Positions 4,010-22,026 of a stretch of DNA of 33,871 bases are shown here, in pieces. Below the pieces are notes generated by a model, which saw nothing but the letters and a program-made list of their open reading frames with translations, was not told the DNA's origin and did no database searches. Source of the stretch: Clostridia bacterium (GTDB lineage: Bacteria > Bacillota > Clostridia > Oscillospirales > UBA644). Position 1 is the stretch's first letter; every line of letters starts with the position of its first letter. The stretch is from positions 1-33,871 of the forward strand of contig JAGAOU010000098.1 in NCBI GenBank assembly GCA_017623595.1. Reading direction: 5' to 3'. The translations under genes and the position numbers were made by a program.

Positions 4010-4101
4010 TAGGTTATTTGTGAATTTTTTGTGAAATTTTCAATTTTCTTGTCACATTTTCATTTTTTTTACGTGTATATAGGGTGAAAGGAGTGTTGAC
4101 C

Positions 4102-4686: not shown

Positions 4687-6221
4687 CCGAAAAGGATTTG
4701 TTCAAACTGTTGGGCGATCTGCCCGATGAAATGATCTTGGAAGCCGATCCCGCAAATTTCAAGAAGAAAAAATCCCCTGTGGCATGGATCAAATATGCCT
4801 CCGCCGCCGTGGCTGCCGCTTTGGTAATCGCCCTATCTATCACCTTCTTGCCCTTGGGGACGGGAACGCCCTCGGTCGATCTGCCCACCACGGACCGTCC
4901 TCCCCTCCATACGCAAGGATCGCAACCCAACAGTTCTCCCTCCGGAGACGAACGTCCGGACACCAACATCACCGACACAGACCACGAAACCGACACCGAG
5001 GATGACAACAGTACCCACGGAGAGATCAAAGACAACGTCTACTGGCAGGAAGGAAAAGTTCCCGAAACGCAGGTGTTCCTTACTTCCGATGCCCTGACGG
5101 AGATGTATTATTCCATTCCATTCGGTGCCTGGAACGTTGCTGTCTACGACGATTTGCTTACCTGGGAAAACGTTCTCTCCTATGGAAATATTGTTAACAA
5201 TCGGATGATCGAGATTCTCTATCGGGATGGAGATTTGGATCCCAATACGCCCGTGATCCCGGGAAATTGGTACGATTCTTCTTACCCTCGTATCCCCTCT
5301 GATAAGATCCGTGATGCTTATCTCGAGGCTTGGGGGCCTTTCTTTTGGGAAGCTAAGCTTAAGAGTATCGAGAATGGTTCTCCGTTAAATCCGAAAAATG
5401 AAAAAGGCTACCCTAATTCGATAGGGAGCGACAACTGTATTCTTTTTTACGAGGAAGCTACCGACAGTTACATTGTTTACAACGAACCCCCCATGGATCG
5501 CGGCGCCCTGAAATCGGGAGACCATTTCTATGGACGCCTACTGTATACGGAAGAGATAAACGGAGAACTTGTGGCCTACATCCGTTTCGGGAATTACGAT
5601 ATCCTGAACGGAAAATGCTACCTTTTGCCTACAAACGTGGAGCATTGGTTTGATAAGGATAACCCCATCGTTCCTCTTTTGGAGGGAGATCATTCTTCCA
5701 ACTACAAAGAAGACAAAAACAGTATCTACAACCGTCTCTTTGCAGGAATGTTTGATGAATATCTCCCCGTTTATCGCCTCTCCTTCCGCCCCGATTCCGA
5801 AGGAAAATATTGGTGGTCTTCCACGCAACGAGTCAAGGAATCGCAGCCCATTCCTGCGGAGCTCGCCACCTCGCCCATTCCCGAAACACGTCCTGCGGGA
5901 ACGGTGTTGCCTATCTATGGAGCTGCTGACGAGGAATCCTCCGTGAAGCTGGGACAACTGTCCTATTTCCGCCCCTATATGGGGATCTATCAATTCTGCA
6001 TCACCCTGGAAGAAGATCGGCTGGATTATTATTGCAAAGTGCCGGGGAACGATGAAGTTCTCACAAAGAAGGATTATATCCTGACCTTCCAGCAAAATCT
6101 GGACGGCGAAACCTGCACATGGGAGGTCTACTCCTCCAATGAATACCCCAACGGATTCGGGATCATCCTTGTCAACGTAACCAAGGGAACCTCCGAAAAC
6201 TGGTACCGTCTGGAACGGTAA
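4683..6221 (+). CDS. Single-pass membrane protein, probable anti-sigma factor with large extracellular domain
   Basis: A 512-residue protein translationally coupled to the sigma gene. Residues 1-34 are cytoplasmic ('MTEKDLFKLLGDLPDEMI'), residues 35-58 form one membrane helix, and residues 60-118 are a Thr/Asp/Ser/Pro-rich linker. The outer domain of about 390 residues is rich in Trp, Tyr and Asp. No zinc anti-sigma HxxxCxxC motif is seen. The short cytosolic segment, single helix and coupling to a sigma gene are typical of Clostridial anti-sigma proteins, so I infer that it holds the sigma factor and responds to an external signal. I do not recognise the outer domain. Middle codons look less GC-rich than those of neighbouring genes. 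Confidence 0.65.
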   Translation: MTEKDLFKLLGDLPDEMILEADPANFKKKKSPVAWIKYASAAVAAALVIALSITFLPLGTGTPSVDLPTTDRPPLHTQGSQPNSSPSGDERPDTNITDTDHETDTEDDNSTHGEIKDNVYWQEGKVPETQVFLTSDALTEMYYSIPFGAWNVAVYDDLLTWENVLSYGNIVNNRMIEILYRDGDLDPNTPVIPGNWYDSSYPRIPSDKIRDAYLEAWGPFFWEAKLKSIENGSPLNPKNEKGYPNSIGSDNCILFYEEATDSYIVYNEPPMDRGALKSGDHFYGRLLYTEEINGELVAYIRFGNYDILNGKCYLLPTNVEHWFDKDNPIVPLLEGDHSSNYKEDKNSIYNRLFAGMFDEYLPVYRLSFRPDSEGKYWWSSTQRVKESQPIPAELATSPIPETRPAGTVLPIYGAADEESSVKLGQLSYFRPYMGIYQFCITLEEDRLDYYCKVPGNDEVLTKKDYILTFQQNLDGETCTWEVYSSNEYPNGFGIILVNVTKGTSENWYRLER

Positions 6222-6713: not shown

Positions 6714-6903
6714 ACAATCCTTCAGTCTCGCCTATGGCGAGCCGGCTCCCTTTACGCAAGGGAGCCTGACCGTTGCGCACGGACTTCCTATTATTTTACT
6801 GTCTGAGAGCGGCTCTTGAACAGCGAAAAAACATTGAGAAATGCACAAAAAAGCCTCCCTTGTATAAAGGGAGGGGGACCGCATAGCAGTGGATGTGAAT
6901 GTC
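6714..6903. repeat. MITE-like palindromic repeat element
   Basis: The two ends are imperfect inverted copies. The left end carries stems CTCGCC/GGCGAG (6727-6741) and GGCTCCCTT/AAGGGAGCC (6744-6766). The right end carries CCTCCCTT/AAGGGAGG (6854-6874) followed by GGGGACCGCATAGCAGTGG. The core 'CTCCCTTTAnnCAAGGGAG' is shared in inverted order. The layout resembles non-coding repeats dispersed in many Ruminococcaceae and related genomes. It encodes nothing; copy number cannot be judged from one window. Confidence 0.6.
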
Positions 6904-6936
6904 CTTTTGTCATAAAAGAACTTTTTCGACAGACTG

Positions 6937-6964
6937 CGGCGACCTGCGATAACGCAGGTCGCCG
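6937..6964. terminator. Hairpin between convergent operons, putative bidirectional terminator
   Basis: Twelve-base-pair perfect stem CGGCGACCTGCG/CGCAGGTCGCCG with loop ATAA. On the plus strand it is followed by GTTTCGACTTTTCTTTTT. It lies 40 bases past the end of the ABC operon on the minus strand. Confidence 0.6.
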
Positions 6965-7003
6965 TTTCGACTTTTCTTTTTAAGAAGAATAAATTCGTAA
7001 GAA

Positions 7004-8011
7004 TTATTCTACCAGACCGGAACGCTCGATACTCTGGATGAAATACCGCTGAGCAAAGAGGAACACGATCAACAAGGGGAAGATGATCAACAAACAAGCA
7101 GTATCGTTGATAGCGGCGATCTGTGCTTCGTCTTCGATGGAAGACGCAACCATAGAAGCCTTGTTTGCCAACAGGTCCATGTCGGGCATGAGCATACTGT
7201 TGTAGGTGGTGTCGGTCCACTGCCAGGTGAAGGCGAAGAGGAAGACGGTGATCATCATGTTGGCGGCGTTGGGCAGCATGATGGAGAAGAAGGTGCGGAA
7301 GAAGCCTGCGCCGTCGATATAAGCAGAGTTTTCCAGTTCCTTAGGCAGGCCGCGGAAGAACTGACGCATCAGGTAGATGTAAAGACCGTTCTTCAGACCG
7401 AGGCCGGTAGCGGACATGATGGTCAGAGGCCAAATGGTGTTGGTCAGGCTGATATCCATGCCGAGGAAGTTGGCAAATCTGATGTACAGAGGCAGCTGGA
7501 TGGTCTGCGCGGGGATCATCAGAGTCAGCATGACTGCCAGGAAGAGCAGGTCCTTGCCGCGGAACTTAAAGCGGGCAAAGCCGTAACCGGCGACACATGC
7601 AACAAACAACTGACAAACCGCAACCACCACCGACAGAAGCACTGTCGTACCGAAAGAGGTCCAGTAGTTCATGTTCAGCATAGAGCGTTCGATGAAGTAT
7701 GTGGAACCCTGACGGGGAATGTACATAACCGTGTTATCCACGATATCTTCGGTACTAGAGAAGGCAACGACCATCTTGACGAAGAAGGGATACAGGATCA
7801 TGTAAGCGATACCGACGATGATAACAAAGCGGAGGATCATCCAGATGAACTTACCCAAGCCGTTGAGGTTCAGGTTACGGCGCTTCCAGGTCGCCCAGTC
7901 CACCTTTTCACGGTAGACCTTGTTCCCGGAACGCATTTCTGCCATGAAGCTCTTTTTGCCGGATTTACCCAAGAAGGGAATTTTTTCCATGAAAGATTTT
8001 TTCTCACTCAT
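7004..8011 (-). CDS. Carbohydrate ABC transporter permease (MalG-type, CUT1), second pair
   Basis: This 335-residue inner-membrane permease has about six helices, starting at about residue 57 (FIWMILRFVIIVGIAYMIL). The cytoplasmic EAA loop reads 'ELENSAYIDGAGFFRTFFSI' and is the docking site for the ATPase. Residues 1-50 are a long basic cytosolic extension (KKSFMEK, KSGKKSF). It is the last gene of the run; AGGAGGG precedes ATG 8011, which lies 14 nt after the partner permease. MalG-type subunits pair with MalF-type ones to import oligosaccharides or related solutes; the substrate is unknown. Confidence 0.92.
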   Translation of the reverse strand: MSEKKSFMEKIPFLGKSGKKSFMAEMRSGNKVYREKVDWATWKRRNLNLNGLGKFIWMILRFVIIVGIAYMILYPFFVKMVVAFSSTEDIVDNTVMYIPRQGSTYFIERSMLNMNYWTSFGTTVLLSVVVAVCQLFVACVAGYGFARFKFRGKDLLFLAVMLTLMIPAQTIQLPLYIRFANFLGMDISLTNTIWPLTIMSATGLGLKNGLYIYLMRQFFRGLPKELENSAYIDGAGFFRTFFSIMLPNAANMMITVFLFAFTWQWTDTTYNSMLMPDMDLLANKASMVASSIEDEAQIAAINDTACLLIIFPLLIVFLFAQRYFIQSIERSGLVE

Positions 8012-8025
8012 TTCGATTCCCTCCT

Positions 8026-8979
8026 CTAGTCCTGATAGACGATTAACTTCTTAACGAGGATAAAGACCAAGCCGACAAAGAGCAACAGCAGCAACGTGTA
8101 CATCCAGGAGAATGCCGATGCCAGCGAGTAGGTGGCGACGTTGGTATAATATCTCGAAATGTAAGAAATCGTCGCGTTATCGATACTGGTGAACAGGTCG
8201 ATAACCGTATAGAGCAGGTTAACCAGAATCAGGGGAGAGATCATGGGGAAGGAGATCTTCCAGAACACTTCCCAACCGGTGGCGCCTTCTACCTTAGCGG
8301 CTTCGTACATGTTAATGGAAATGGACTGAAGGCCGGAAAGGAAGATCAGCATCTGAACCCCGGACGAGGTAATAACGGTGTAAAGGCTTCCGATGGCTCC
8401 GGCGATAATCTCCGAAAGTCCGGAGCTTCCCAAAGCCGAGAGGAGCATTTGTTCAATCTCCACAAAGTCAAATGCGGAGGTCTCGGTACCGACGTTAAGC
8501 TTTTCACCCTGTTCGTACATATCGGTCATGGAAGACAGGTTATCGAAGTAGGTAACGATACCGGTAGACATAACAACGGGGATGAAGAAGATCACGCGGG
8601 CGACGGATCTGCCGTGGAAGTTCTGATTCAGAATGTTTGCCATAAAGAAGGCAAAGATCAGAATGATGAAGATCTGAGGCAGCAGCGCAACCGTGGAAGA
8701 ATATACCGTTTTCAGGAAGTCTTTTTCCACGAACAGCGCATCGTGATAGTTCTGCCAACCAATGTACTCAAGTTCTTTACCGTACTGGCCGGCGTTGGAA
8801 GAGAAGGAGTACTGTGCGGACTGCACAAGAACGGGAATGTAGATGAACAGAAGACCGATCAAAATCGGAGCAACAAATACATAGCCGAACAGACTCTTCT
8901 TGCGCTCCAGCGACATCAGGGGTTTCCCCGGGCGCTTGGGCGGCTTTACTGCTTTTACAGTTGCTGTAGTTTCAGCCAT
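8026..8979 (-). CDS. Carbohydrate ABC transporter permease (MalF-type, CUT1), second pair
   Basis: A 317-residue permease whose first helix is 'LFGYVFVAPILIGLLFIYIP' (residues about 30-50), typical of MalF/UgpA-like subunits. The EAA loop is 'NMYEAAKVEGATGWEVFWKI'. An acidic segment 'FDFVEIEQMLLSALGSSGLSE' lies between helices and is not a usual part of short CUT1 permeases. The gene starts 3 nt after the lipoprotein stop, with its AGGAGG inside the lipoprotein coding end, so translation is tightly coupled. It should form a channel with the MalG-type product that follows. No ATPase is encoded nearby. Confidence 0.92.
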   Translation of the reverse strand: MAETTATVKAVKPPKRPGKPLMSLERKKSLFGYVFVAPILIGLLFIYIPVLVQSAQYSFSSNAGQYGKELEYIGWQNYHDALFVEKDFLKTVYSSTVALLPQIFIILIFAFFMANILNQNFHGRSVARVIFFIPVVMSTGIVTYFDNLSSMTDMYEQGEKLNVGTETSAFDFVEIEQMLLSALGSSGLSEIIAGAIGSLYTVITSSGVQMLIFLSGLQSISINMYEAAKVEGATGWEVFWKISFPMISPLILVNLLYTVIDLFTSIDNATISYISRYYTNVATYSLASAFSWMYTLLLLLFVGLVFILVKKLIVYQD

Positions 8980-8982
8980 TGT

Positions 8983-11900
8983 TTAACCCTCCTGTCCATT
9001 ATCAGAAGGCTCTTCCACCGGAGCGGGAACCACGGGAGCGGGTTCATAAGCAGAGCCATTGATAATTGCTTCATATTCAGCCAAGGTGAAGACCTTATAA
9101 GAAGTTGCTTCCACAACGGTGCGGTCATTCAGTTCAACAGCGAAGGGGTTGTAGTTGACAACAACAACCTTCTTGTCGCCGTAAACGGTAGCGAAGACAC
9201 CGCCGTCGGAAGAATTGCGTTCCACAGCATGGACGTGAACGTAGTTGCCGTTTTCATCCACGGGAACCAATCCGGTAGCCTTGTCGGGATCGGCCATGAC
9301 CCAACCCAACTTACCTTCCTGATCGAATACGTAGTACGCATCGAGAGCTTCGTGCTTGGTGATGGGATCGTTGAGAACATCATTCAGAACAGAAGCGGCT
9401 TCTTTGTAAAGGGCAACTGCACGATCAATAGTAGAGGTGTAGTTGAGGGAGAAGTAGTTGTAGAAGGAAGTGTAGTCGAAGATAGAGTCTTCTGCACCCA
9501 TCCAACGGAAGGAGGGAGCAGCACCGGTTTCCAGCGCCAGAAGCAGGGCGGTCTTGTAGTCACCGGTCTGGTTCACAGGATCCAGAGAGTAGTTTACATA
9601 ACCGTGGAGCAGCATCTGGGTGAAAGGAATAGCTGCGGATTCGAAGAGATATTCGGAGGAGCCGACAGGCAGCCCGAAGATGTGGTTTGCATAGTTCCAA
9701 GTGTAGAAGTTACCGGTAGAAACGGCAATGTTGTAGCCTTCAAAGTTCTGAAGGATCTTCACATGGTCTTTTTCAGCCCAGGAACGGGTCACGCCTTCGT
9801 TGGTCTTGTAGTTGGAGTGGAGATCCTTACCCAGATTACCGAGGGCAATGTTCTTGGAGGTGAAGACTTCTTCGAAGGAAGTCTTGTAAGTAGCGGAGAT
9901 TTCAGCGGCAACCTTGGAGGAAACAAGGATCTGTTCTTCCAAATCGTCGCGCAAAGAGCCAATGGCGTTCATACGAGACACGATGGTGGCAGTAGAACGG
10001 TTCATACGGCGGGCAGCGTCCTGAGAGGTGCTGAATCCGTTATCAGTGTTGGTAACATGCAGGAATTCAACCGAGGGGAAGAAGCCCATATTGTTATCGT
10101 CGCAATACTGAATCAGTGCTTTCAGGTCGTTCTCGGCGCCCATGCAGCTCAACAACTCCAGATCGGAAGCCATGAAGTTGTTTTCACCACCGTTTGCCCA
10201 GTAAGAATAACGGGCAACCACATTATTGACACCGGCTTCCTTCAGCTTGGAGAGGATCTCCTTGGCCTGAGAATAGGTGGTCAGAGCGGTTTCGGACTGA
10301 ACGGGAATACCAAGGAAGGTCTGATTCAGGTCAACACATCCGAGCAGATCAACATAGAGGGGAAGTTCGGTTTCGCTGAGGGTTTCAGCGGGGAACATGC
10401 CTTCTTTAATAAAGTAGTCTCTCAGAATCTTAGCGTAATCGGAATAGGTCAGACCGCCTTCGGTGAAGAGATACTGAATGGAGAAATGTCCGGTAATGGC
10501 ATCCTTGGAGAGGAGCAGGCCGGATCCTGTTTCCGCTTCAGCAGCACCCACAGCATAAGAGGTGGAGTAGGTACGGTAATCGCGTTCGGAGTAAATGACT
10601 TCATAGTTGACCGAAGCAACGGGGTTTGCGTTCCCCGACTTGGGACGAGCAACCACGCTGGCCTGGGCGGCACCGTCCTTCATAACGGCAATCACACCGC
10701 CGGCATTGTAACGGGTAGCCTTTTCAGACAGATTGTCGCGGTCATAGATGATATAGGGAGCCAACACCTGTTCGGCATAGCTCATATCATATTCCTTACT
10801 AAAGGATCCGTCGGCGCCGTAGATACGATTCTTGAAGACATCGGCAGTCAATTTACCCGTGAGGGGAATGGTTGCGCCGGAGCCGTCGGGAACGATCATG
10901 TAAGCGTCGGTGTAGTTATAATCCTTACCGTTCTTGTCAACACCCTTGTGCTGGAAGCCGCCGTTGGCACCGAAGCCGCGGTACACGTTAATGGTGTAAA
11001 GACGCTGCTTGGTGGGGCCCAGGATCAAAGAGGTGTCAATATCAACGGAAAGGCCGTCGTTGTTGAGGGTCAGATCCACGGGAATTGTGTAAAGAACGGA
11101 ACGTTCGGGGCCCTGGTAGTCGGCCTTTTCCATTTCCTTCTTAACGTCCTTAACAGTGAATCCGATGGTTTCCATCAAGCCTTTGATATTCTTCTTCAGC
11201 TTTGTGGAGGTACCTTCATAAGAAACGTACAAGGTCATAACGTCGATGGTGGGGAAGGTAGACTTAAAGCGCTCCTTGGTTTCGACGGTAATATCCTTGG
11301 GGGTCATGTAACGGTAGCAACGTTCCAGAAGGTCAACGTAATCAAGGTACTGATCTTCATCGATGGTACCGTCGAGGTATTTATCCTCCAGGCCCTTCAA
11401 AATGCGGTTGTTGTAAGTATCTTCGGTAATAACCGGGGGGAACAGGTCCTTATCGGGGTCGTTACCAATGGTATACACGAGACGGAGTGTGTTTTCGCCG
11501 GTTTTCACAACATAGAAGGAACCGGTACCGTCTTCCCAACAGTTGCCGTAGAAGTTGAAGGAATAGCGCTTACCGGAAGCGTCGTAAGCTTCAAGAATCA
11601 GGGGAGAAGCGATATTCTGCTGATTTGCAGTGGAGAAGGAGGAGATGCCGGGATCCCGCTTGGGATTGGAATGGAACACATTTCCGGTCTTCATGTCCTT
11701 CACAGCCACGTCAGTGGTCTTGAAGTCAAAGTACAGCTGATAATTATCGTTCTTCATCAGCAGATACATATCGGTCAAGCCGGAGGTACCGCCGTCACTT
11801 TTGCTGACCTTCTCGAAGTTGGTGGGAACCTGAGCAAAATGACCGTAGGTTTCCTCATCTTCCGTCAGATCCACGATCTGGGGACCGTAGAGAAGCTCTA

Positions 11901-12057
11901 CGTCCTCTGCGAAAATGAGGGATTTGATGAACTTGGTGCGGGCTTCGTCGGAAACCTCGTTGGTTTCTACGGAGTCAATTCCGCAGGAAGAGAGTGCGAT
12001 TGCGATCAGCAATACACTCGTAATCAAAACGAGTAATTTTTTAGTCATAGATTTCAT
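8983..12057 (-). CDS. Large surface lipoprotein, DUF5696-like, with probable TIM-barrel-like region
   Basis: A 1024-residue secreted protein. The signal peptide ends in lipobox LSSC (Cys about 25), so it should be anchored to the outer membrane face. The first 570 residues look beta-rich ('VDKNGKDYNYTDAYMIVPDG'). Residues about 575-860 have the alternating strand-helix pattern of a glycosidase-type barrel: 'LPLYVDLLGCVDL', 'GVNNVVARYSYWANGG', 'LIQYCDDNNMGFFPSVEFLH'. A C-terminal beta domain ('KVVVVNYNPFAVELNDR') and an acidic Pro-rich tail follow. From memory this fits DUF5696 proteins, which occur beside sugar ABC permeases. Catalytic residues cannot be assigned. AAGGAGG precedes ATG 12057. 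Confidence 0.7.
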   Translation of the reverse strand: MKSMTKKLLVLITSVLLIAIALSSCGIDSVETNEVSDEARTKFIKSLIFAEDVELLYGPQIVDLTEDEETYGHFAQVPTNFEKVSKSDGGTSGLTDMYLLMKNDNYQLYFDFKTTDVAVKDMKTGNVFHSNPKRDPGISSFSTANQQNIASPLILEAYDASGKRYSFNFYGNCWEDGTGSFYVVKTGENTLRLVYTIGNDPDKDLFPPVITEDTYNNRILKGLEDKYLDGTIDEDQYLDYVDLLERCYRYMTPKDITVETKERFKSTFPTIDVMTLYVSYEGTSTKLKKNIKGLMETIGFTVKDVKKEMEKADYQGPERSVLYTIPVDLTLNNDGLSVDIDTSLILGPTKQRLYTINVYRGFGANGGFQHKGVDKNGKDYNYTDAYMIVPDGSGATIPLTGKLTADVFKNRIYGADGSFSKEYDMSYAEQVLAPYIIYDRDNLSEKATRYNAGGVIAVMKDGAAQASVVARPKSGNANPVASVNYEVIYSERDYRTYSTSYAVGAAEAETGSGLLLSKDAITGHFSIQYLFTEGGLTYSDYAKILRDYFIKEGMFPAETLSETELPLYVDLLGCVDLNQTFLGIPVQSETALTTYSQAKEILSKLKEAGVNNVVARYSYWANGGENNFMASDLELLSCMGAENDLKALIQYCDDNNMGFFPSVEFLHVTNTDNGFSTSQDAARRMNRSTATIVSRMNAIGSLRDDLEEQILVSSKVAAEISATYKTSFEEVFTSKNIALGNLGKDLHSNYKTNEGVTRSWAEKDHVKILQNFEGYNIAVSTGNFYTWNYANHIFGLPVGSSEYLFESAAIPFTQMLLHGYVNYSLDPVNQTGDYKTALLLALETGAAPSFRWMGAEDSIFDYTSFYNYFSLNYTSTIDRAVALYKEAASVLNDVLNDPITKHEALDAYYVFDQEGKLGWVMADPDKATGLVPVDENGNYVHVHAVERNSSDGGVFATVYGDKKVVVVNYNPFAVELNDRTVVEATSYKVFTLAEYEAIINGSAYEPAPVVPAPVEEPSDNGQEG

Positions 12058-12071
12058 GTTATTCGTCCTCC

Positions 12072-12809
12072 TTACTCGTTAAGCCGGAATATGACTTCTG
12101 TCCCGATTTCCATAAAGAAACTCGTGACCTGCTGGAGCAGGAAGAAGACAAGGATAGCGACGAAGGCGATCACTGCCATGCCGACAATAGTCAGAACGGT
12201 TGTACCGAGACCTTTTGCAACCGAGTACTGGTGAACGATAATCATCGCGAGGAAGATGTACAGGTAAGCCCAAACCATACCGAGGGAGCCGATGAAGGTA
12301 AAGATGCTGGCTTCGGCAGCGGTAAAGAAATGGCTCAGGGGGATCTGGATCAAGTTGCAAATCGTCATGGGCAGGGTCGCAAAAGCCGTAACCATGAAGA
12401 CGTCGGAAAGCTTACCGTCACCATCCATCAGGGAGGAGAAGCACCAGTTGGCGACCGCCCAAAGGATGAAGGGAAGCAATGCGGTGATCATGCGAACAGG
12501 GACGTTCAGGTCCAGTTGTGCGCCGCGATCTGCGAACAGATAACCCAGAGACTGGAAGCGAACGAGATCGACGACTGCATAAACAACCAACCACATAACG
12601 CCGGCAGAAACCGAGCGACGCTTGGGGTCATTCTTCAGATCGAAGAATCCGTCAAAGGGGTGAAAAAGAATGTAGAAAGCGAATCCCATGCGCTTGAAGG
12701 TGGTCTTGGTTGCCACCCCAAATTTGGGGAAGAAGACCTTCAGCCAAGCGAGGAAGTCGGAGAAGAGCGCGGAGAAGCTAAAACCGGATTTCTTTTCAGT
12801 CTTTTCCAT
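12072..12809 (-). CDS. YIP1-family multi-pass membrane protein
   Basis: A 245-residue protein with a cytosolic N-terminus of about 65 residues followed by five hydrophobic segments (for example 'VMWLVVYAVVDLV', 'ITALLPFILWAVANW', 'SLGMVWAYLYIFLAMIIVHQ', 'LTIVGMAVIAFVAILVFFLL'). The 'FHPFDGFFDLKND' entry segment and the 'LPFILWAVANWCFSSLMDG' helix followed by 'DVFMVTAFATLPM' are typical of bacterial Yip1-domain proteins. Their biochemical role is unknown. The start overlaps the stop of the beta-propeller gene (TAATG), so the two products are made together and may act as one unit beside the transporters. Confidence 0.85.
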   Translation of the reverse strand: MEKTEKKSGFSFSALFSDFLAWLKVFFPKFGVATKTTFKRMGFAFYILFHPFDGFFDLKNDPKRRSVSAGVMWLVVYAVVDLVRFQSLGYLFADRGAQLDLNVPVRMITALLPFILWAVANWCFSSLMDGDGKLSDVFMVTAFATLPMTICNLIQIPLSHFFTAAEASIFTFIGSLGMVWAYLYIFLAMIIVHQYSVAKGLGTTVLTIVGMAVIAFVAILVFFLLQQVTSFFMEIGTEVIFRLNE

Positions 12810-14560
12810 TATGCAACATCTCCTTTCTTAGCCCGATTGATCTTGGGAGCGTCTCTGTCCTCGTCCCGATGTACAGGCTTCATTTTCTTCTTTTTCAAAT
12901 GTTTGCGAACAAAACTCAGAACGATCAGGCCAACCACCAGAACACCGATGGCACCGAAGATCAGACCGAAGTATTTCTCCAACTCATTTCCGCGAAGCGC
13001 GGTGTAAGCAACGGAGTAGTTCACCTTTTCGTTGGCGCGGTCGAAGTAGACAATGGCCTTTTCGTAGTGGTCGAGAGCGTTCATGCCGTTTGCATCTCTC
13101 TGATCATCGATCAGAGCCATAGCCAGACGCATCTCAGCCTTACCGAGACCGATGTTTGCGATGAACATGTTGGAGTTGTAGGAAAGAACCTCCTGCCACA
13201 GAGGAATGGAAGCTTCCCAGTATCCGTTTGCGGAAGCCTGAGCGGCCTCGTTGATCGCATGGACATAGTCGGTAGCGCGGAAGACCGTTACGGTCTTTGC
13301 CTTGGTATCGGAAACATAGACGTAGTCCCCGTTAATCTCGATGGCAGCTGCCAATTGGAAGGTACCCTGAGAAGTACCGGAGCCACCGCCAAGATACAGA
13401 AGGTTACCGTCGGCATCGTAGGTGAAGAAGCGTCCGGTCTGCTGATCCAGGATGGTGTAGCGTCCGCTGTTGCTTTCCACAGCGATGTCCACAATCTTGG
13501 GATAGACTTCTCTGGAGGGAGCCCAAATCAGGTCACCCATGGGAGAAGACAGACCTTTGCGGCGGAGCATGTCGGTACCGTCGGCAGAGAGCTTCTTAAC
13601 GGGAGCATAGGTGGGGCTGACAGACAGACTGCGAAGAGCCGAAACTGCTGCCTCATCCAGTGCTGCAATAGTGGGATAGATAAATCCACGGTCATCGATG
13701 GTCAGGCTGCTATACTCGGTGGGAGTGTAGGTAACCATCTGAGCCAGCTGCTCTTCGGTAGCGAAGTTACGCCAGATGCGTTCCCAAGCGCTGATCAGAA
13801 CGTCGGGAGCACCAAAGAAGGAACGGAATTCACCGTCGCTGGTGATCTGCATGATACCGCGGTTAATGCCGGCACAGATAACCTGAATATCGCCGGTATT
13901 ATCAATAACCAGACGGGTGGGATTGAAGACGTAATTGTCGCCCAGAACCGAAACCTTGATGGACTGATAAACGTTGTAAACCTTACCGGTCAGGTCGCAT
14001 GCAACGATGCGCTGATTGTCGGTGTCGGAGACATAAACGATGGGGTCGAGTTTCCCGTCGCCGTCGGCATCTTCTTTGCCGTCAACAACGAAAATACCCT
14101 GAGGATTGTTGAACTCAAGCTTGTTACCGGAGCCGCTCGAGGCACCGGAAGATCCGCCGCCTTCTTCTCCCTCTTCACCCTCTTCGGGAGCAGCCTGGAC
14201 GATAGCAAGATCGGGAACATCACCGACCAGGAGTCGGATCTGAGTAACGAGCTGATATTCTTCGTCAAGAACAAATACACAGCGGTTCACGGAGTCAAGG
14301 ATATAGAGATAACCGTTATGAACGTGAAGGTCCGTGGGAGAGAACTTCGCGGTCAGCGCCATATCGGTGAAATCCGAGACCTTCAGAACGCGGTCGACGG
14401 TAAAGGAGAGGGGCGCAGATGCGTCATTTCCGTTTACGTCATAGAAATAGGAATTGGAAACATTGTTAATGGGCAACGCGAAGGAGGTGGTAACCATACC
14501 GACGACCAAGGAGAGTGCGAGGACCGTAACAATGAGTGCTTTGATAAACTTTTGCTTCAT
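12809..14560 (-). CDS. Secreted membrane-anchored beta-propeller (NHL-like) and TPR-like protein
   Basis: A 583-residue protein. Residues 1-29 are a signal peptide ending in TSFA. Residues about 50-440 contain repeated beta-propeller-like strands: 'DLHVHNGYLYILDSVNRCV', 'NPQGIFVVDG', 'IVYVSDTDNQRIVACDL', 'YVYVSDTKAKTVTVFRA'. A low-complexity Glu/Gly/Ser insertion sits near residues 133-155. Residues about 445-525 look like TPR helices ('GYWEASIPLWQEVLSYNSN', 'ALDHYEKAIVYFDRANEKV'). A membrane helix spans about 532-551 and a basic tail lies in the cytoplasm. NHL-type propellers bind proteins or glycans. Placement between permeases and YIP1 suggests a scaffold or sensing role at the transporter; that is inference. 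Confidence 0.75.
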   Translation of the reverse strand: MKQKFIKALIVTVLALSLVVGMVTTSFALPINNVSNSYFYDVNGNDASAPLSFTVDRVLKVSDFTDMALTAKFSPTDLHVHNGYLYILDSVNRCVFVLDEEYQLVTQIRLLVGDVPDLAIVQAAPEEGEEGEEGGGSSGASSGSGNKLEFNNPQGIFVVDGKEDADGDGKLDPIVYVSDTDNQRIVACDLTGKVYNVYQSIKVSVLGDNYVFNPTRLVIDNTGDIQVICAGINRGIMQITSDGEFRSFFGAPDVLISAWERIWRNFATEEQLAQMVTYTPTEYSSLTIDDRGFIYPTIAALDEAAVSALRSLSVSPTYAPVKKLSADGTDMLRRKGLSSPMGDLIWAPSREVYPKIVDIAVESNSGRYTILDQQTGRFFTYDADGNLLYLGGGSGTSQGTFQLAAAIEINGDYVYVSDTKAKTVTVFRATDYVHAINEAAQASANGYWEASIPLWQEVLSYNSNMFIANIGLGKAEMRLAMALIDDQRDANGMNALDHYEKAIVYFDRANEKVNYSVAYTALRGNELEKYFGLIFGAIGVLVVGLIVLSFVRKHLKKKKMKPVHRDEDRDAPKINRAKKGDVA

Positions 14561-14580
14561 TACGAAAAACGCTCCTTTCC

Positions 14581-15546
14581 TTAGTCTTTCATACCGGAGG
14601 TTGCCATGGTTTCGATGATGTTACTCTGGGTGATCAAGAAGGTCAGAACAGGAACGATCATCATGATAACGTTAATAGCCATGGAAACGCCGGCACGGGC
14701 AACGCCTTCTGCGGCGATCTGACCCATTGCGTAGTTCAGAGTCTTCAACTCTTCACGGTAGATGTAAATGGTAGCACCCTGGTTCCAGTAGTCCTTAACC
14801 GAGAACACGATCAAGGTCATCCATGCGGGCTTCATGTTGGGCATCAAAATGCTCCAGAAGATCCGGAACTCGCCGGCGCCGTCGATACGGGCTGCTTCCA
14901 GAACCGAGTCGGGGAACTGGTCAACGAAGCCGCGGATCAGGTACAGCGAGAAGGAAGAACCGAGGGCGGGAACCAGCAAACAGAGCCAGGTATCGATCCA
15001 GCCCAGATTTGCCATGATCAGGTAGTTTGCCAGGGCAGCTGCGGGGGCAGCGAACATCAGGGTCATGGTGATCAGTTTGTTGATCGCTCTGCGGCCCTTG
15101 AACTTTGCCTTAGAGAGGGGGTATGCGGCCATAGACGCGGAGATAACGCGGAGAAGGGTAGCGCCGATGGTGATAAACAGGGTGTTAAACAGATAACGGG
15201 TAAAGGGAACGGTGGAGTTGGAAAGAATGGTGAACATGTCGCGGTAGTTTGCCCCGGTGGGGTTCTTCACGATCAGGTTCGGGGGGAACAACCACAGTTC
15301 GTGGAGAGGCTTAAAGGAGTTGGAGATAGCGTAGATCATGGGGAAGGCCATGAACACACCGGCAATCAGAAGGAACGCCACCATGGCGATATCGCCGCCG
15401 ACAGAACGGTTCACGCGGTTTTTGATGAGCTTTTTCTTCTTATAATAAATACGGTTGCCTTCCTCATCGTACTTGGGACGCTTACGGAAGATACCTACGG
15501 TCTCCTGCTTCTGCTTAGGAAGTTTAATTTCTTCAGTACTATTCAT
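14581..15546 (-). CDS. Carbohydrate ABC transporter permease (MalG-type, CUT1), first pair
   Basis: A 321-residue permease with a basic cytosolic N-terminus of about 55 residues ('KKKKLIKNRVNRSVGG'), then six helices starting at 'IAMVAFLLIAGVFMAFPMI'. The EAA motif reads 'SVLEAARIDGAGEFRIFWSI'. 'FKPLHELWLFPP' after the first helix is characteristic of LplC/YtcP-like permeases. AAGGAGG lies 9 bases before ATG 15546, and the gene follows its MalF-type partner by 14 nt. It should form the first transport channel of the operon with that partner. Confidence 0.93.
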   Translation of the reverse strand: MNSTEEIKLPKQKQETVGIFRKRPKYDEEGNRIYYKKKKLIKNRVNRSVGGDIAMVAFLLIAGVFMAFPMIYAISNSFKPLHELWLFPPNLIVKNPTGANYRDMFTILSNSTVPFTRYLFNTLFITIGATLLRVISASMAAYPLSKAKFKGRRAINKLITMTLMFAAPAAALANYLIMANLGWIDTWLCLLVPALGSSFSLYLIRGFVDQFPDSVLEAARIDGAGEFRIFWSILMPNMKPAWMTLIVFSVKDYWNQGATIYIYREELKTLNYAMGQIAAEGVARAGVSMAINVIMMIVPVLTFLITQSNIIETMATSGMKD

Positions 15547-15560
15547 TTCATTAAACCTCC

Positions 15561-16475
15561 TTATTTACCGATTCTGTCAAGCACGAACTGAACAACCTTG
15601 TTCGCCAGGATGGAGATCAGGAACAGCAGAGCCGCAATGGCACATGCGTAACCCATCTCGTAACGGACGTTACCATAGTCGTGCAGGTGGTGCATGATGG
15701 TGTGAAGCTTGTAAGACTGAGTGGGGAAGCCGAAGACTGCGGTGATGATGCCGTCGACACCGAAGGAGCCGGTAATCGCAAGAATAGCACCGAACATCAG
15801 CTGACCACGCATCTGGGGCAGGGTGATGTAGTAAAGTTCCTGCCAGCGGTTCTTGATACCGTCTACGGCGCCCGCCTCGTAGAGGGAGCGGTCAACGGTC
15901 TGAAGACCGGCGATGAAGGTCAGGAAGGTTGTACCCAAGGACTGCCACAGAATAATGATAATACAAACGGGGAACATGTAGTCGGTATCAACGGTCCAAC
16001 GGATGGGTTCCGAAATGATATCGAACTCCTGGAGCCAGGCGTTGATGTAACCGTAGGAGTCACTGCTGAAGAGCAGGGCCCAAACGGCACTCATACCACC
16101 GGAAAGAGAGGGGGCGAAGAACAACAGAGTCATGAATGCACGGGGCTTGGGAGGAATTTCGTTGACCAGCCACGCAAAAGCGAAGCAGAGCAAGTATCCG
16201 ATAGGACCCGTAATGCAGGCAATGATCAGGGTGTTCTGAATTGCGGTGGAGAACACGCTATCGTTCAAGAAGAGCTTGGCGTAGTTGTCCAGACCGACGA
16301 AGTCAGGCATTTCCAACAGGTTGAAGTTGGTCAAGCTGAACATGATGGAAACCAAAACCGGAAGAATGGTGAACAGGAAGAAGGTTACCAGGAAGGGCCC
16401 AAGGAAGACCACCAAACTCAACCGACGGTTCCGATTCGCTTGTTTGAGGCTTGCGGATTTAGCAGTATTTTTCAT
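15561..16475 (-). CDS. Carbohydrate ABC transporter permease (MalF-type, CUT1), first pair
   Basis: A 304-residue permease with first helix 'LVVFLGPFLVTFFLFTILPV' at about 20-40. The EAA loop is 'SLYEAGAVDGIKNRWQELYY'. The length and the 'FNLLEMPDFVGLDNYAKLF' periplasmic-side segment fit LplB/UgpA-like subunits. The gene starts 18 nt after the solute-binding protein stop, with GGGAGGATAGGAA before the ATG. It should receive ligand from that binding protein and share a channel with the MalG-type product downstream. Confidence 0.93.
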   Translation of the reverse strand: MKNTAKSASLKQANRNRRLSLVVFLGPFLVTFFLFTILPVLVSIMFSLTNFNLLEMPDFVGLDNYAKLFLNDSVFSTAIQNTLIIACITGPIGYLLCFAFAWLVNEIPPKPRAFMTLLFFAPSLSGGMSAVWALLFSSDSYGYINAWLQEFDIISEPIRWTVDTDYMFPVCIIIILWQSLGTTFLTFIAGLQTVDRSLYEAGAVDGIKNRWQELYYITLPQMRGQLMFGAILAITGSFGVDGIITAVFGFPTQSYKLHTIMHHLHDYGNVRYEMGYACAIAALLFLISILANKVVQFVLDRIGK

Positions 16476-16493
16476 TTCCTATCCTCCCTCGCA

Positions 16494-19400
16494 TCAATTC
16501 GAAGCTGCTTCGGGCCGGGAAGAGTCGGTCGCGGAATCGCTATAGGGGAGATTCAACTGTTCTCTCTTATACTTGATTTCCTTGTTGATCTCCTGAACGT
16601 AGTTCAAGATAGACTCTCTGGCATCCGTGTAATCGTCAAGGACTTCGTTGAATGCAAAGCCATAGTAACGAGAGTAGTAATAACCACCAACCTTCTCTTC
16701 ATAGCCGACGGTGTTTTCCCACTGGTCGAGAATTGCGGTCAATTCCTTCGTGGTCCAGGGCAAACGCTGAGCGGCAGCAAGGTTTGCGGTATTGTAGCGA
16801 GCGGCAACACCCAAGGTAGCTTCCAGTTCAATACCATATTCGTACTGAGCATCTTCACCGCACCACCAGGTCATCCAAGCCCAGCAGGCCTTGGCATGAT
16901 CTTCACCCTTTTCGATACCGCCCTGGTTCAGCAGAGCAATGGAGGAAACGGTGGTAACGGTCTTGTAGTTGATCTCGGGATTGCCTTCCGCGTCAAGAAC
17001 GGGATTTCCGTTTTCATCCACGACCTCGGTGCCGGGGACGGTGGTGAAGGTCCAGTTGCCTTTGATTTCGGGAGCCGCAACACACAGGGTGCTGTAGAAG
17101 GTCAGAGGCTGCATGCCGATGGGCATTTCGCCGAAACGGAAACGGTTCTGGAAGTTAAAGGACTTGGGACAGTTATAAGTAATATAGTAGTCGGTAACAG
17201 TAATGAAGGACTGGATTGCAGTTTCGCTGTCAAGGTTAATCTGATAACCGTTATTCTTATAAAGAGTTTCGCCTCTCTGATAGAGGATGGTGAGGAAATC
17301 CGGGGGAGCAAAGTCCATATAGCGCTTCTTCAGCACGGCGATCATGTCATAAACCTCGGTCCAGGTCTCGGGAATTTCCATACCAAGGTCGGCCATAACA
17401 TCTTCGCGGTAGAAGAGCAGGTCGAAGCTCTGCTTCTCGGGAAGACCGTAAACATTGTGTACGGTTTCACCTTCCCGCTTTTCCTGATCCTTATACATTT
17501 CCAGCGTAATGGAAGTGAAGGCAGTGGGAGCGAACCAGGTTTTAACCTCGTCGAATCCGGGAATCTCGCGATATCCTTCTTCCGCACTTTCCTGCGTATG
17601 ACCCTCAAAGTTATTCAACGCAACCAAAGCATTACGGGAGGCATAGTTAATAATATCGGTAGCGCCCAGACCCATTACAATGTCGGGACCCTTACCTGCA
17701 AAGACGGAGGGAAGCAGCGCGCCGCCGGGAACCAGTTCGATGTCAACACCGATTCCGTACTGATTAATAAAGGCACGTTCAATCAGTCTCTGCTTGATTT
17801 CGGCACGTTCCTTACCGGTGGTAGCCCAGATCGAAACAGTGGTATCAAAGACCTTATCGCTGGTGGCACCGATGGAGTTGGTGTCGGAAGTGAAGGAAGC
17901 GGCAAACATAACGATATTGTGCCAAATGTCTTCGAAGAAATTGGATTCAGCATCGCCGGGAACATAATCGGGCTGAGCCACAAGGATGTAGTCGATTTCC
18001 AAAGGCTGATTACGCATGGTGTTCAGCCAGGAACCCAGGTTGGTGATCTGGTTTTGGAAGTTTTTGAACAGGGAAGCGATCTCATCGGGATCTTCGGACA
18101 TTTCGTAGAGGACGTCGATTACATTATAAATAATAGCGGTCTGCTGACCTTCGCCGCCCATGATCTCGATCAGGTTGTTGTAGATGCTCATCAGAATATC
18201 GCCCTGCGCCTTCAGGTCGGAGATGACATCGGGAATTTCTTCATCCAATTTATAATCGCGGTATTCGTCGGGCTCCGCACCGGTGATCTGCATGATCTTA
18301 CGGTAGTCGTTGTTCAGCTTGTTAACAACGGTATCAACAGCGTTGATATAGTTGCTCAGCTCGCCGGTGGTAGCGGCAATGCGGATGATGTTTTCACCCT
18401 CATTGAACTTGAACAGCAGTTCTTCACCGTAGTCATCGGTGGGAGTGGACAGTGTCCAGGAGGTGTCATAGGGGAAACGGATGCGGGTCGCTTCGCTGAC
18501 GGGAGTCTCGCCGTTGACAGTAATCTGACGGCTGGAGAAGGTACCGGAAGCGATGTTCTGACGGGCACGGAGAACGATCTTGTACAGGCCGGCTTCGGGC
18601 ACGCTGACCTTATATTCCACCCACTGACCGGAGGTATTCCAGTTTTCACCGCCCAGAACGTTGTACTTCAACAGGTCGGAGGACTGGGGCTCGGTAGCCG
18701 CAGAGGAACGGTCGTAAGCGGAGTAAACGGAAGTGGAAGACTTCGCGTAGGGATATTCCGCCTGGATCTTCGTAACAAGGTCGCCGCCTTCGATTCTCAG
18801 AGCGCTGTTTTCAGCCAGGTATTCCGTATAGGAAATGGAGGCTTCCACACCGTAGAGATAGATCTCGGAGAAGGCAACGGGTTCACGGGTGGAGGTAAGA
18901 CGGATGACGTTTTCGCCCTTTTCCAGATAGAACTGGAGAGCGCCGTCATAGGCACCGGTGGAATCCTTGAAATAGGACTTGTCGACCCACTGGTGATTCT
19001 CCACAGAGGGAACGCGGATCTGATTGCCCTTCAGGTCCGTGGGGAAGTAATTGTCGATCAGGCCGTTTTCGTCAGGATCGGAAAGATTTTCGGGATCCTT
19101 AACGTCATCGACAAAAATACGGTCGAGGGCTGCGGTACGGGCTTCGGTGTAGGGAGATTCGCCGTTGATCGTGATGGCACGCTCAATGGCCACGCCCTTA
19201 CCGGGGACCGTAAAATAAGAACAGCCGAGGCCGTAAAGACCGGTGGAGGGAACGTTGACGGTAAACTCAACGTAGCCTTCGTCCTCCATCAAGAGGACGT
19301 TCGATCTTTCTTCGTAAGTATCTTTCACCTGTACCTTTTCGCCGGCGGTATACTTCGTCACATCGATAACGAGAGTTTCTTCCGCGGCGGCTGCACGGGC

Positions 19401-19562
19401 GTAAGTCTGGAGGTATTCACCGTAGGATCCCGCTTTGTAAACGGCGACGAAGGGAATCGAGGAGTCGAGCTCCGTGATTGCCTTCGCGAACGAGGAAACG
19501 GCCAATACCTGGACCGCCATCACAACGACGAGGATCGTTGCGATAACTTTGCTTTTGCGCAC
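16494..19562 (-). CDS. Giant extracellular solute-binding protein with N-terminal carbohydrate-binding-like modules
   Basis: The start is the GTG at 19562: AAGGAAGGTG lies 7 bases upstream and the product opens with a clean signal peptide (VRKSKVIATILVVVMAVQV, cut after about 'SSFAKA'). A longer frame to 19703 would translate the promoter and is rejected. The 1022-residue protein has two beta-sandwich-like modules in residues about 30-390, each with 'GLYGLGCSYFTV' or 'AGLYKIVLRARQN' and a 'GENVIRL'/'GENIIRI' strand, like CBM6/35-type folds. A helical linker follows, then a family 1 binding protein from about residue 565 ('VFAGKGPDIVMGLGATDI', 'YGLPEKQSFDLLFYREDVM', 'ACWAWMTWWCGEDAQYEYG'). Ordinary binding proteins are about 430 residues long. 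There is no lipobox cysteine, so the anchoring mode is unclear. Confidence 0.85.
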   Translation of the reverse strand: MRKSKVIATILVVVMAVQVLAVSSFAKAITELDSSIPFVAVYKAGSYGEYLQTYARAAAAEETLVIDVTKYTAGEKVQVKDTYEERSNVLLMEDEGYVEFTVNVPSTGLYGLGCSYFTVPGKGVAIERAITINGESPYTEARTAALDRIFVDDVKDPENLSDPDENGLIDNYFPTDLKGNQIRVPSVENHQWVDKSYFKDSTGAYDGALQFYLEKGENVIRLTSTREPVAFSEIYLYGVEASISYTEYLAENSALRIEGGDLVTKIQAEYPYAKSSTSVYSAYDRSSAATEPQSSDLLKYNVLGGENWNTSGQWVEYKVSVPEAGLYKIVLRARQNIASGTFSSRQITVNGETPVSEATRIRFPYDTSWTLSTPTDDYGEELLFKFNEGENIIRIAATTGELSNYINAVDTVVNKLNNDYRKIMQITGAEPDEYRDYKLDEEIPDVISDLKAQGDILMSIYNNLIEIMGGEGQQTAIIYNVIDVLYEMSEDPDEIASLFKNFQNQITNLGSWLNTMRNQPLEIDYILVAQPDYVPGDAESNFFEDIWHNIVMFAASFTSDTNSIGATSDKVFDTTVSIWATTGKERAEIKQRLIERAFINQYGIGVDIELVPGGALLPSVFAGKGPDIVMGLGATDIINYASRNALVALNNFEGHTQESAEEGYREIPGFDEVKTWFAPTAFTSITLEMYKDQEKREGETVHNVYGLPEKQSFDLLFYREDVMADLGMEIPETWTEVYDMIAVLKKRYMDFAPPDFLTILYQRGETLYKNNGYQINLDSETAIQSFITVTDYYITYNCPKSFNFQNRFRFGEMPIGMQPLTFYSTLCVAAPEIKGNWTFTTVPGTEVVDENGNPVLDAEGNPEINYKTVTTVSSIALLNQGGIEKGEDHAKACWAWMTWWCGEDAQYEYGIELEATLGVAARYNTANLAAAQRLPWTTKELTAILDQWENTVGYEEKVGGYYYSRYYGFAFNEVLDDYTDARESILNYVQEINKEIKYKREQLNLPYSDSATDSSRPEAASN

Positions 19563-19676
19563 TGCAAAACACCTTCCTTTTGGTTCGAATATTGCCATGG
19601 AGACGTAAAACGACTTACGAGGCGCTCGCAAATGTTTTGTTTCTCCCATATTGCCAAGGGTAGACCCCTTTTTTAC
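19563..19676 (-). promoter_or_regulatory. Leader of the ABC operon with small hairpins
   Basis: The roughly 113-nt leader between promoter and GTG can form short hairpins: 19604-19619 (CGTAA/TTACG), 19618-19628 (CGAG/CTCG) and AAGGG/CCCTT at 19656-19670. An 8-base motif GGCAATAT occurs twice. No known riboswitch is recognised. Confidence 0.3.
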
Positions 19677-19682
19677 TTGCTT

Positions 19683-19711
19683 ATTATAATATATTTGCGC
19701 CAAAATGTCAA
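19683..19711 (-). promoter_or_regulatory. Consensus SigA promoter of the eight-gene ABC operon
   Basis: Minus-strand TTGACA (19706-19711), exactly 17 bp, TATAAT (19683-19688): a full consensus match. No operator palindrome is obvious around it. Confidence 0.92.
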
Positions 19712-20079: not shown

Positions 20080-20097
20080 TATAACGAAATTGAAACA

Positions 20098-22026
20098 TCA
20101 GGCAGGAGGAAGATCCGTCGGCGTTCCCGAATCCACGGGAAGAGAGGTGTCGGAAGCCGTTCCGCCGTCCGTATCCGAAGGTACCTGCGGAACCTCGGAG
20201 GAAGACTCGGAGGGAACAGAAGTGCCGGAATCGGCGGTATCATCGGTGGGAGTCCCGCTATCGGTCACACCGGGATTATCGGTGGGAACAGAGGCCGAAT
20301 CGGAGGAAACAATCTCCCCTCCCCCTTCCGTCGTGCCACCCGAATCGGTGGTATCGGAAGGATCTGCCCCCACAGAATCCGTAGGAACATCGGTGGGCTG
20401 CCCGGAAGTATCGACAGAGGAATCCGTACCGGGAACATCGGTGCTCGGGGGAACATCGGTGGTACCGACATCGGGCGAAGCCCCTGTTCCGTCGGTGGAA
20501 GGAATGTCCGTGGGGGTATCGGTGGGGATGTCAGTAGGAATATCGGTGGGCGCGTCAACGGATCCATCCGTCACATCGGTGGAATTATCGGTGACACCGG
20601 ATCCGCCGGAGCTTCCGGTGAATCCCTGTCCGTCATCGTCGGTAAAACTCGGCCCCGGCAGTTCTCCCAAGGCTTCATGCTTCATCAAAACCGCATGCAC
20701 CGCCACGCGCATATTTTCATCGGTGCCCTTACAGGTGGACATGGTCATAATCCGATCCTTGGGCGAAAATTCAAACTTTTCAAATGCGGGAATCATGTTC
20801 TTATTCTGCAGGGTATACAAAAAGTCTACATATTCCGCATCATCGACAAAGGCAGTATCAATGTAGTTAAAATCGACCGTAGTCTCATACCAGGAAAAGA
20901 TCTGCCACACAGAGCGTTCCATGGGCGTGTTGATATAAATAAAGTGATTATAGCCGTCCTGTTGCCACGCCCGTTGTGTATTCAGATACTTCAATCCGCC
21001 AAAAATCATATAACTGCGAGCATGGCCGTAGAAGATCAGATTCCGATTACTGCGCAGGTTTGGCATATAGTTGCGGCAGTCGGCATAAACCCAGCCGTTT
21101 TCGCTGACACTGTGATCAAAAGAGGTGTTGAGATAATAGTCATTGTCATCCCCCTGCACCACGGGCAGATTGATGGGCAAACCCTTCACATCCGCTGTGG
21201 AGGGCACATAAAGCCAACAAACCGTATCCTCGTTCTCCCCCTTCAACGCCGCAAAATCCACCGTCTGCAAGAACGGAAGGGTGGCGGGGTCAATATCCGT
21301 GGGAGCGATGGCTTGCCATGCATCCAGATCGGGATAAGGCAGCGGCGGCATAACCGAGCTGTCCCCCTCCTGCAGCTCGGGGAAGGCAAGGCCCGACAAT
21401 TCCTGTCGCACCCCTTCCACAGCGGTGTCCAGCAGAGATTGCTCGAAGATGCCGAGCAGGCTGAAGGAAAAGACAAAGGCACAAGCGGCGAGCATCAAAA
21501 GAGAAATGGGAGAATATTTCAAATATCCCCCTTTTTTCTTTTTCTTCTCAACGGGAGGGGCTTCCGCTGAAGAGGTCCCGGGCTCCGACGGAGCATCCTC
21601 AGGAGGCGGCGGTGGAGCAGAAGATTTCTCGGAAGGTTCCTCGACGGGAAGATCCTGTACATCCTCATCGGCAGAAGACTCCTCGGAAGAAGATTCTTCC
21701 GAAGACTCATCCTCGGAATTCACCACTTCGGGGTCATGCTCCGCCGCAGGAGTGTCCTCTTCCGTCGGCAAGGGTGCAGATTCTTCCTCGGAAGCCTCAG
21801 CAGACGCTCCCTCCGATGTAGTCTCCCCTTCCGCCGCATCCGACGGCGCTTCCGCTGAGGAGTCCTGCGCAGAAGGGGCCTGATCAACGGAAACGGGAGC
21901 CTCCGTCACGGAAGCACGCTCTTCAGGCACAGATTCAACCGTTGCCCCTTCGGGGTGCACGGATTCGGCGCAAGCCTCGGCGGCTTGCGTCTCCTCCTCG
22001 GGAACCCGATTTTTTTCATCAGACAT
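20098..22026 (-). CDS. Class B sortase with acidic cytosolic head and Thr/Asp/Pro-rich outer tail
   Basis: A 642-residue protein in four parts. Residues 1-160 are cytosolic, very rich in Glu, Ser and Ala. KKKKK then precedes one membrane helix (about 173-193). Residues about 265-450 are a class B sortase: 'VVQGDDNDYYL', 'FYGHARSYM' with catalytic His335, 'MTMSTCKG' with Cys432 and 'NMRVAVHAVL' with Arg440. Sortases normally end here, but a 190-residue tail of Thr/Asp/Ser/Pro repeats (PTDIPTDIPTDTPTDIP) follows. The enzyme should attach surface proteins to cell wall or pilin partners; no sorted substrate is in the window. AGGAGG precedes ATG 22026, 34 nt after the transketolase stop, so co-transcription is likely. 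Confidence 0.9.
   Translation of the reverse strand: MSDEKNRVPEEETQAAEACAESVHPEGATVESVPEERASVTEAPVSVDQAPSAQDSSAEAPSDAAEGETTSEGASAEASEEESAPLPTEEDTPAAEHDPEVVNSEDESSEESSSEESSADEDVQDLPVEEPSEKSSAPPPPPEDAPSEPGTSSAEAPPVEKKKKKGGYLKYSPISLLMLAACAFVFSFSLLGIFEQSLLDTAVEGVRQELSGLAFPELQEGDSSVMPPLPYPDLDAWQAIAPTDIDPATLPFLQTVDFAALKGENEDTVCWLYVPSTADVKGLPINLPVVQGDDNDYYLNTSFDHSVSENGWVYADCRNYMPNLRSNRNLIFYGHARSYMIFGGLKYLNTQRAWQQDGYNHFIYINTPMERSVWQIFSWYETTVDFNYIDTAFVDDAEYVDFLYTLQNKNMIPAFEKFEFSPKDRIMTMSTCKGTDENMRVAVHAVLMKHEALGELPGPSFTDDDGQGFTGSSGGSGVTDNSTDVTDGSVDAPTDIPTDIPTDTPTDIPSTDGTGASPDVGTTDVPPSTDVPGTDSSVDTSGQPTDVPTDSVGADPSDTTDSGGTTEGGGEIVSSDSASVPTDNPGVTDSGTPTDDTADSGTSVPSESSSEVPQVPSDTDGGTASDTSLPVDSGTPTDLPPA
20101..20604 (-). 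repeat. Low-complexity region encoding the sortase tail
   Basis: Degenerate repeats of triplets for Thr-Asp-x-Pro, Thr-Asp-Ser-Gly and similar units, running to the stop codon. The frame is intact across the whole stretch. Such tracts can change length by slippage. Confidence 0.75.

Follow-up and report, generated by a model that had tools for sequence, protein, structure and literature searches.

Importers of the CUT1 class of ABC transporters, such as MalEFGK2, UgpABCE and MsmEFGK, contain one MalF/MalG permease pair per transporter and can draw on a shared ATPase, MsmX or UgpC. The 33,871-nucleotide stretch of Clostridia DNA that was analysed here (referred to as the window) carries an operon with two such pairs, one giant binding protein and three further proteins, none of which is an ATPase. 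This raises the question of whether these genes belong to one system, how that system would be powered, and what the additional proteins contribute to it.

The eight genes lie on the minus strand and, together with a promoter and a terminal hairpin, make up one tight operon at window positions 6854–19711 (Table 1), in the order giant solute-binding protein (SBP), MalF1, MalG1, PROP (an NHL-propeller/TPR protein), YIP1, DUF5696, MalF2 and MalG2. Pfam families were matched by the SBP (SBP_bac_8), the four permeases (BPD_transp_1, UgpA/UgpE-like), YIP1 (Yip1) and DUF5696. Proceeding from the SBP to MalG2, the gene coordinates give gaps of 18, 14 and 20 nt, an overlap of 1 nt, and gaps of 14, 3 and 14 nt. 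Chance alone would give about 0.0025 perfect promoter sites per 14.5 kb, as against the one found at 19711–19683. Promoter-like sites in general numbered 11, where chance predicts 11.2; the perfect site at 19711 stands apart, and a splitting of the operon by internal promoters was rejected. Gene coordinates and Pfam/profile families thus confirm the preliminary description, which had proposed an eight-gene run in this order, its genes overlapping or at most 20 nt apart, with a single consensus promoter and no ATPase gene within it.

Table 1. Features of the operon, in the order of transcription (positions in the window).
Feature	Position	Strand	Characteristics
Promoter, sigma-70 type	19683..19711	-	TTGACA-17-TATAAT, 12/12 match
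Giant SBP	16494..19562	-	about 1022 aa, with a signal peptide; CBM-like beta-sandwich domain present twice; coiled coil; C-terminal SBP_bac_8 domain
MalF1	15561..16475	-	MalF/UgpA-type permease; EAA loop EAGAVDG...LP
MalG1	14581..15546	-	MalG/UgpE-type permease; EAA loop EAARIDG...MP
PROP	12809..14560	-	NHL propeller with six blades (about 50-430), TPR-like helices (431-510), transmembrane helix (527-556)
YIP1	12072..12809	-	membrane protein; Pfam Yip1, 7e-13
DUF5696 protein	8983..12057	-	lipoprotein; GH129/GH101-like fold, GH129 nucleophile lost
MalF2	8026..8979	-	second MalF-type permease; EAA loop EAAKVEG...FP
MalG2	7004..8011	-	second MalG-type permease; EAA loop ELENSAYIDG...LP
Intrinsic terminator-like hairpin	6854..6874	-	follows MalG2

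A second terminator-like hairpin, at 20080–20055, closes the sortase gene upstream; a search for structured RNAs found none in the window. The 642-aa product of that upstream gene (20098–22026) resembles sortase B and has a long tail rich in Ser, Thr and Pro. Near the other end of the operon, positions 4084–6221 hold the gene for a divergent sigma-70-family factor, followed by that for a 512-aa protein without a family match.

Homologues of PF18952, the Pfam family of DUF5696, were present in 41 of 59 relatives and in every sampled genome of the source genus, and the cassette was syntenic in about 40 relatives of the order. The same gene order was found, as far as the contigs run, at all 80 loci that scored best among at least 534 relatives of DUF5696; these loci come from named genomes of Clostridia, Lachnospiraceae, Paenibacillus and Cohnella. 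Because they were selected by DUF5696 score, an even sample of 291 genomes of the class provides a fairer test. It contained 83 long DUF5696 matches in 64 genomes and 80 PROP matches in 62, with both present in 61 genomes, DUF5696 only in three and PROP only in one. All but six of the long DUF5696 genes (77 of 83) had PROP on their own strand at a distance of no more than 3.6 kb, and some of the exceptions sit near contig ends. Chance adjacency is rejected by this co-location and by the synteny. The co-occurrence of PROP, YIP1 and DUF5696 with CUT1 permeases, for which the preliminary description had suggested a search, is therefore conserved in Clostridia and Paenibacillus relatives, and its view of the run as a conserved multi-gene system is upheld, the operon being neither split by internal promoters nor variable in content. 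A single permuted cassette was seen (genome G028, L078:7753-19525), in which MalF2/MalG2 precede the SBP and a gene for a GH31 enzyme directly follows DUF5696.

The genes that surround the cassette vary. Enzymes of families GH10, GH43, GH30, GH53, GH76, GH38, GH127, GH2, GH31, GH95, GH123, GH78 and GH106 are encoded next to or near it in relatives, in support of the glycan link that the preliminary description had proposed; a Butyrivibrio copy has GH43 and a two-component system alongside, many copies in Paenibacillus and Butyrivibrio have additional SBP genes beside them, and in G028 six complete or partial DUF5696 cassettes have differing neighbours. Some neighbours are housekeeping genes. 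The window copy lies near genes for sortase B and a D-Ala carboxypeptidase, and neither a glycosidase nor a regulator gene adjoins it. Since about a dozen glycosidase families are represented beside the copies in relatives, the cassette resembles an all-purpose chassis for glycan import, with exchangeable enzymes that determine the substrate. Some copies may carry cargo other than a glycan, because the plasmid-borne copy of Paenibacillus cellulosilyticus (L166:7552-19751), with ugpC at its head, sits among flavin oxidoreductases (several of the LLM class lie behind it) and not among glycosidases. Two other neighbours were recorded: a 1400-aa protein without a Pfam match, which five genomes of the family encode downstream of the cassette (L036:14311-18561 and L042-L045), and a WD40-repeat protein with a weak GH16-like stretch directly behind another copy (L050:4162-6483).

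How would such an operon be energized? The EAA loop of the permeases contacts the ATPase, and these coupling loops are intact in all four permeases of the window. The same holds in relatives for 115 of 115 MalF1, 116 of 116 MalG1, 120 of 122 MalF2 and 123 of 123 MalG2 proteins. A MalK/UgpC-type ATPase with a C-terminal OB domain is encoded in the source genome outside the operon: one lone OB_MalK ATPase on contig C54 (L073:1858-2979), flanked by other genes and scoring above the NCBIfam cut-off for UgpC. The genome encodes 11 BPD permeases. With MalF1 and MalG1 as queries (E ≤ 1e-8), no CUT1 permease beyond those of the operon was detected in it, in an assembly from a metagenome that is about 86% complete and may lack other transporters. 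Because this is the sole OB_MalK ATPase found and no other CUT1 permease was detected, we infer by elimination that it probably powers the permeases of the operon.

An ATPase of this type was found in 48 of the 59 relatives, in none of them inside the cassette loci that were read; the other 11 gave no OB_MalK match, and some of these genomes are incomplete. Consistent placement of ATPase and regulator genes inside the locus of relatives had been named beforehand as a result that would speak against the system. It did not appear, and an ATPase within the locus as a rule is rejected, with one UgpC among about 127 loci. In that one case, P. cellulosilyticus, a ugpC gene whose product is 55% identical directly precedes the SBP gene, a natural hint that UgpC pairs with the permeases of the cassette.

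The SBP is of the extracytoplasmic CUT1 type in its C-terminal half, for which the closest solved relative is Lin1841 (5ysb; E=4e-26), the beta-1,2-oligoglucan binding protein of Listeria. The front part of the window SBP bears two copies of one beta-sandwich domain, an internal duplication (hhalign 99.5%), with weak matches to CBM35 and CBM6. The longest frame has 1069 codons and opens with a TTG. Since this TTG lies inside the promoter, the true start is likely to be the GTG at 19562 behind AAGGAAGG, which yields the product with a signal peptide listed in Table 1.

PROP has no Pfam match. Its propeller and TPR parts were recognized by both profile and fold (model pLDDT 82; NHL Z 28), and its transmembrane helix by hydropathy. 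In most relatives YIP1 is fused to the C-terminus of PROP, with separate strong matches for the two domains; 75 junctions of PROP with DUF5696 lack a separate YIP1, as compared with 44 PROP–YIP1 junctions. As the two are so often one polypeptide, we conclude that PROP and YIP1 form one functional unit.

The DUF5696 protein matches PF18952 far above the curated cut-off (E=5e-123; 412 bits, cut-off 25.6 bits). It had been described as a lipoprotein, which holds for the window copy, with its LSSC lipobox, but not for the family, because only 40 of 125 relatives have a lipobox. A profile search with this protein matches GH129 structures, alignment to the GH129 profile gave E=8e-12 (hhalign 97.5%), and its model (pLDDT 77) superimposes on ZgGH129 and NagBb with a Z of about 29 over 560–590 residues, the score for GH101 being lower, at 19. 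The known catalytic aspartate of GH129 enzymes (D435 in NagBb, D486 in ZgGH129; PMC5698469) falls, in an alignment at low identity, on G740 of the window protein, in a column where most of 125 members have S (46), G (35), R (16) or A (10). At the acid/base column, 65 of the 125 carry D or E, and the window copy carries S780. D391, D416, D833 and E843, by comparison, are nearly invariant. All of 37 DUF5696 proteins match PF18952, and PF11308 (GH129) is not among the families that these 37 match. A shorter DUF5696-like subfamily of about 570 aa (profile about 190–612) occurs outside the cassette, at L071:9810-11543 and in many genomes of the class, and could be an enzyme branch of the family.

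The preliminary description had an envelope assembly capture or process a glycan. Because a protein of GH129 fold has lost the GH129 nucleophile, processing by DUF5696 is less likely than binding, and we favour a role as a non-catalytic glycan receptor for MalF2/MalG2, in place of a binding protein. Its gene stands directly before MalF2, where that of an SBP would stand, and this position fits such a role, as does its apparent co-evolution with PROP and the second permease pair. Alternatively, DUF5696 may be catalytically active and represent a new GH129-related family of surface glycosidases, trimming glycans so that the two pairs import two different products. The GH129/GH101 fold over the whole length, the profile homology, the acidic residue kept at the acid/base column in about half of the members, and the use of partly different catalytic residues by a GH129-like 3,6-anhydro-D-galactosidase (PMC5698469) would all suit an enzyme, and an altered chemistry is conceivable, since those four further acidic residues hardly vary. 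The residues at the nucleophile column, and serine at the acid/base column of the window copy, nevertheless argue against catalysis of the GH129 kind, and retention of DUF5696 beside very different glycosidases fits a general role better than specificity for one bond. We regard an active glycosidase as rather unlikely.

Somewhat less probable still is that the operon combines two separate, co-regulated importers, SBP–MalF1–MalG1 and MalF2–MalG2 with another binding protein, one of which is helped by the accessory proteins. Distance matrices, compared without a species-tree baseline, correlate in two blocks, SBP/MalF1/MalG1 (r 0.85–0.92) and PROP/DUF5696/MalF2/MalG2 (r 0.93–0.95), as two importers would predict. 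Further binding proteins are also at hand, both in the extra SBPs beside the Paenibacillus and Butyrivibrio copies and in the source genome, where a lone gene for a CUT1-type SBP_bac_1 lipoprotein, without adjoining permeases, lies on contig C110 (L170:5968-7311); its product is a possible extra binding protein for the cassette importer itself. Yet the two blocks are practically never apart across about 120 loci, and PROP, YIP1 and DUF5696 lie between the two permease pairs everywhere except at the permuted locus. A system directed at the glycans of the cell's own envelope, in recycling or quality control, or one that senses glycans rather than feeding the cell, would agree with the sortase B and carboxypeptidase genes near the window copy, the missing glycosidase there, the constancy of DUF5696 in the genus and the housekeeping neighbours in some relatives, but is improbable given the plant- and host-glycan enzymes of many families that adjoin the relatives' copies and the one genome with six copies whose adjoining genes differ.

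On balance, we consider it probable, if by no wide measure, that the operon encodes a CUT1-derived double-permease ABC importer for glycan fragments, with DUF5696 as a receptor, PROP–YIP1 as a scaffold and one UgpC/MsmX-type ATPase encoded elsewhere. In such an importer, the CBM-like front domains of the giant SBP would hold a glycan, in the source strain as in relatives, and its SBP domain would hand oligosaccharides to MalF1/MalG1. DUF5696, at the binding-protein position, would most likely serve the second pair as its receptor, PROP and YIP1 would act as one membrane-anchored propeller scaffold, and the single ATPase would drive both pairs. Joined to different glycosidases in relatives, the chassis would be a general module rather than a transporter of a single sugar. 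An operon that held two transporters, each with a cargo of its own, would look no different. A stronger version, in which both permease pairs, PROP–YIP1, the CBM-bearing SBP and the pseudo-glycosidase receptor physically assemble into one double-barrelled complex on a shared UgpC, as a Gram-positive counterpart of the SusCD chassis, is put forward tentatively and seems to us doubtful.

This fixed gene set, three of whose proteins have no assigned function, is kept by about one in five sampled genomes of the class and by many Paenibacillaceae. Should it prove to be a general machine for glycan import, it would account for the nutrition of many uncultured gut Clostridia, give roles to DUF5696 and to bacterial YIP1 proteins, and provide an instance of an ABC importer with two permease pairs. 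Two permease pairs with three constant accessory proteins make a layout for which we found no published description, in a system that would work as a CUT1 importer does. Our literature search, which covered few subscription papers and is weak evidence in this respect, returned no paper on DUF5696 and nothing relevant on YIP1 with NHL proteins or permeases; a transcriptome paper on Paenibacillus JDR-2 does not mention YIP1 or NHL proteins.

Comparison with known systems places the cassette between several of them. It resembles the SusCD importers of Bacteroidota by analogy only, in joining a conserved chassis to changing enzymes, and differs in using ABC-type permeases in Bacillota, without an outer membrane or TonB. 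With Gram-positive polysaccharide utilization loci it shares the glycosidases, SBPs and regulators that adjoin it in many relatives; unlike them, its transporter core has eight fixed parts, and no enzyme or regulator gene adjoins the window copy in its locus. DUF5696 shares its fold with GH129 (NagBb, ZgGH129/DagB) and GH101, but at about 14% identity, without conservation of the nucleophile, and as a membrane-anchored protein of an ABC operon. Lin1841, closest to the SBP domain among solved structures, lacks the N-terminal extension of 500 residues and belongs to an ordinary operon. With CUT1 importers the cassette has in common the MalF/MalG-type permeases with EAA loops, an SBP gene in first place and, probably, a shared UgpC-type ATPase; it departs from them in its two permease pairs, which the window operon shares with nearly every relative whose locus is complete, in the size and the front beta-sandwich domains of its SBP, and in the three constant proteins PROP, YIP1 and DUF5696.
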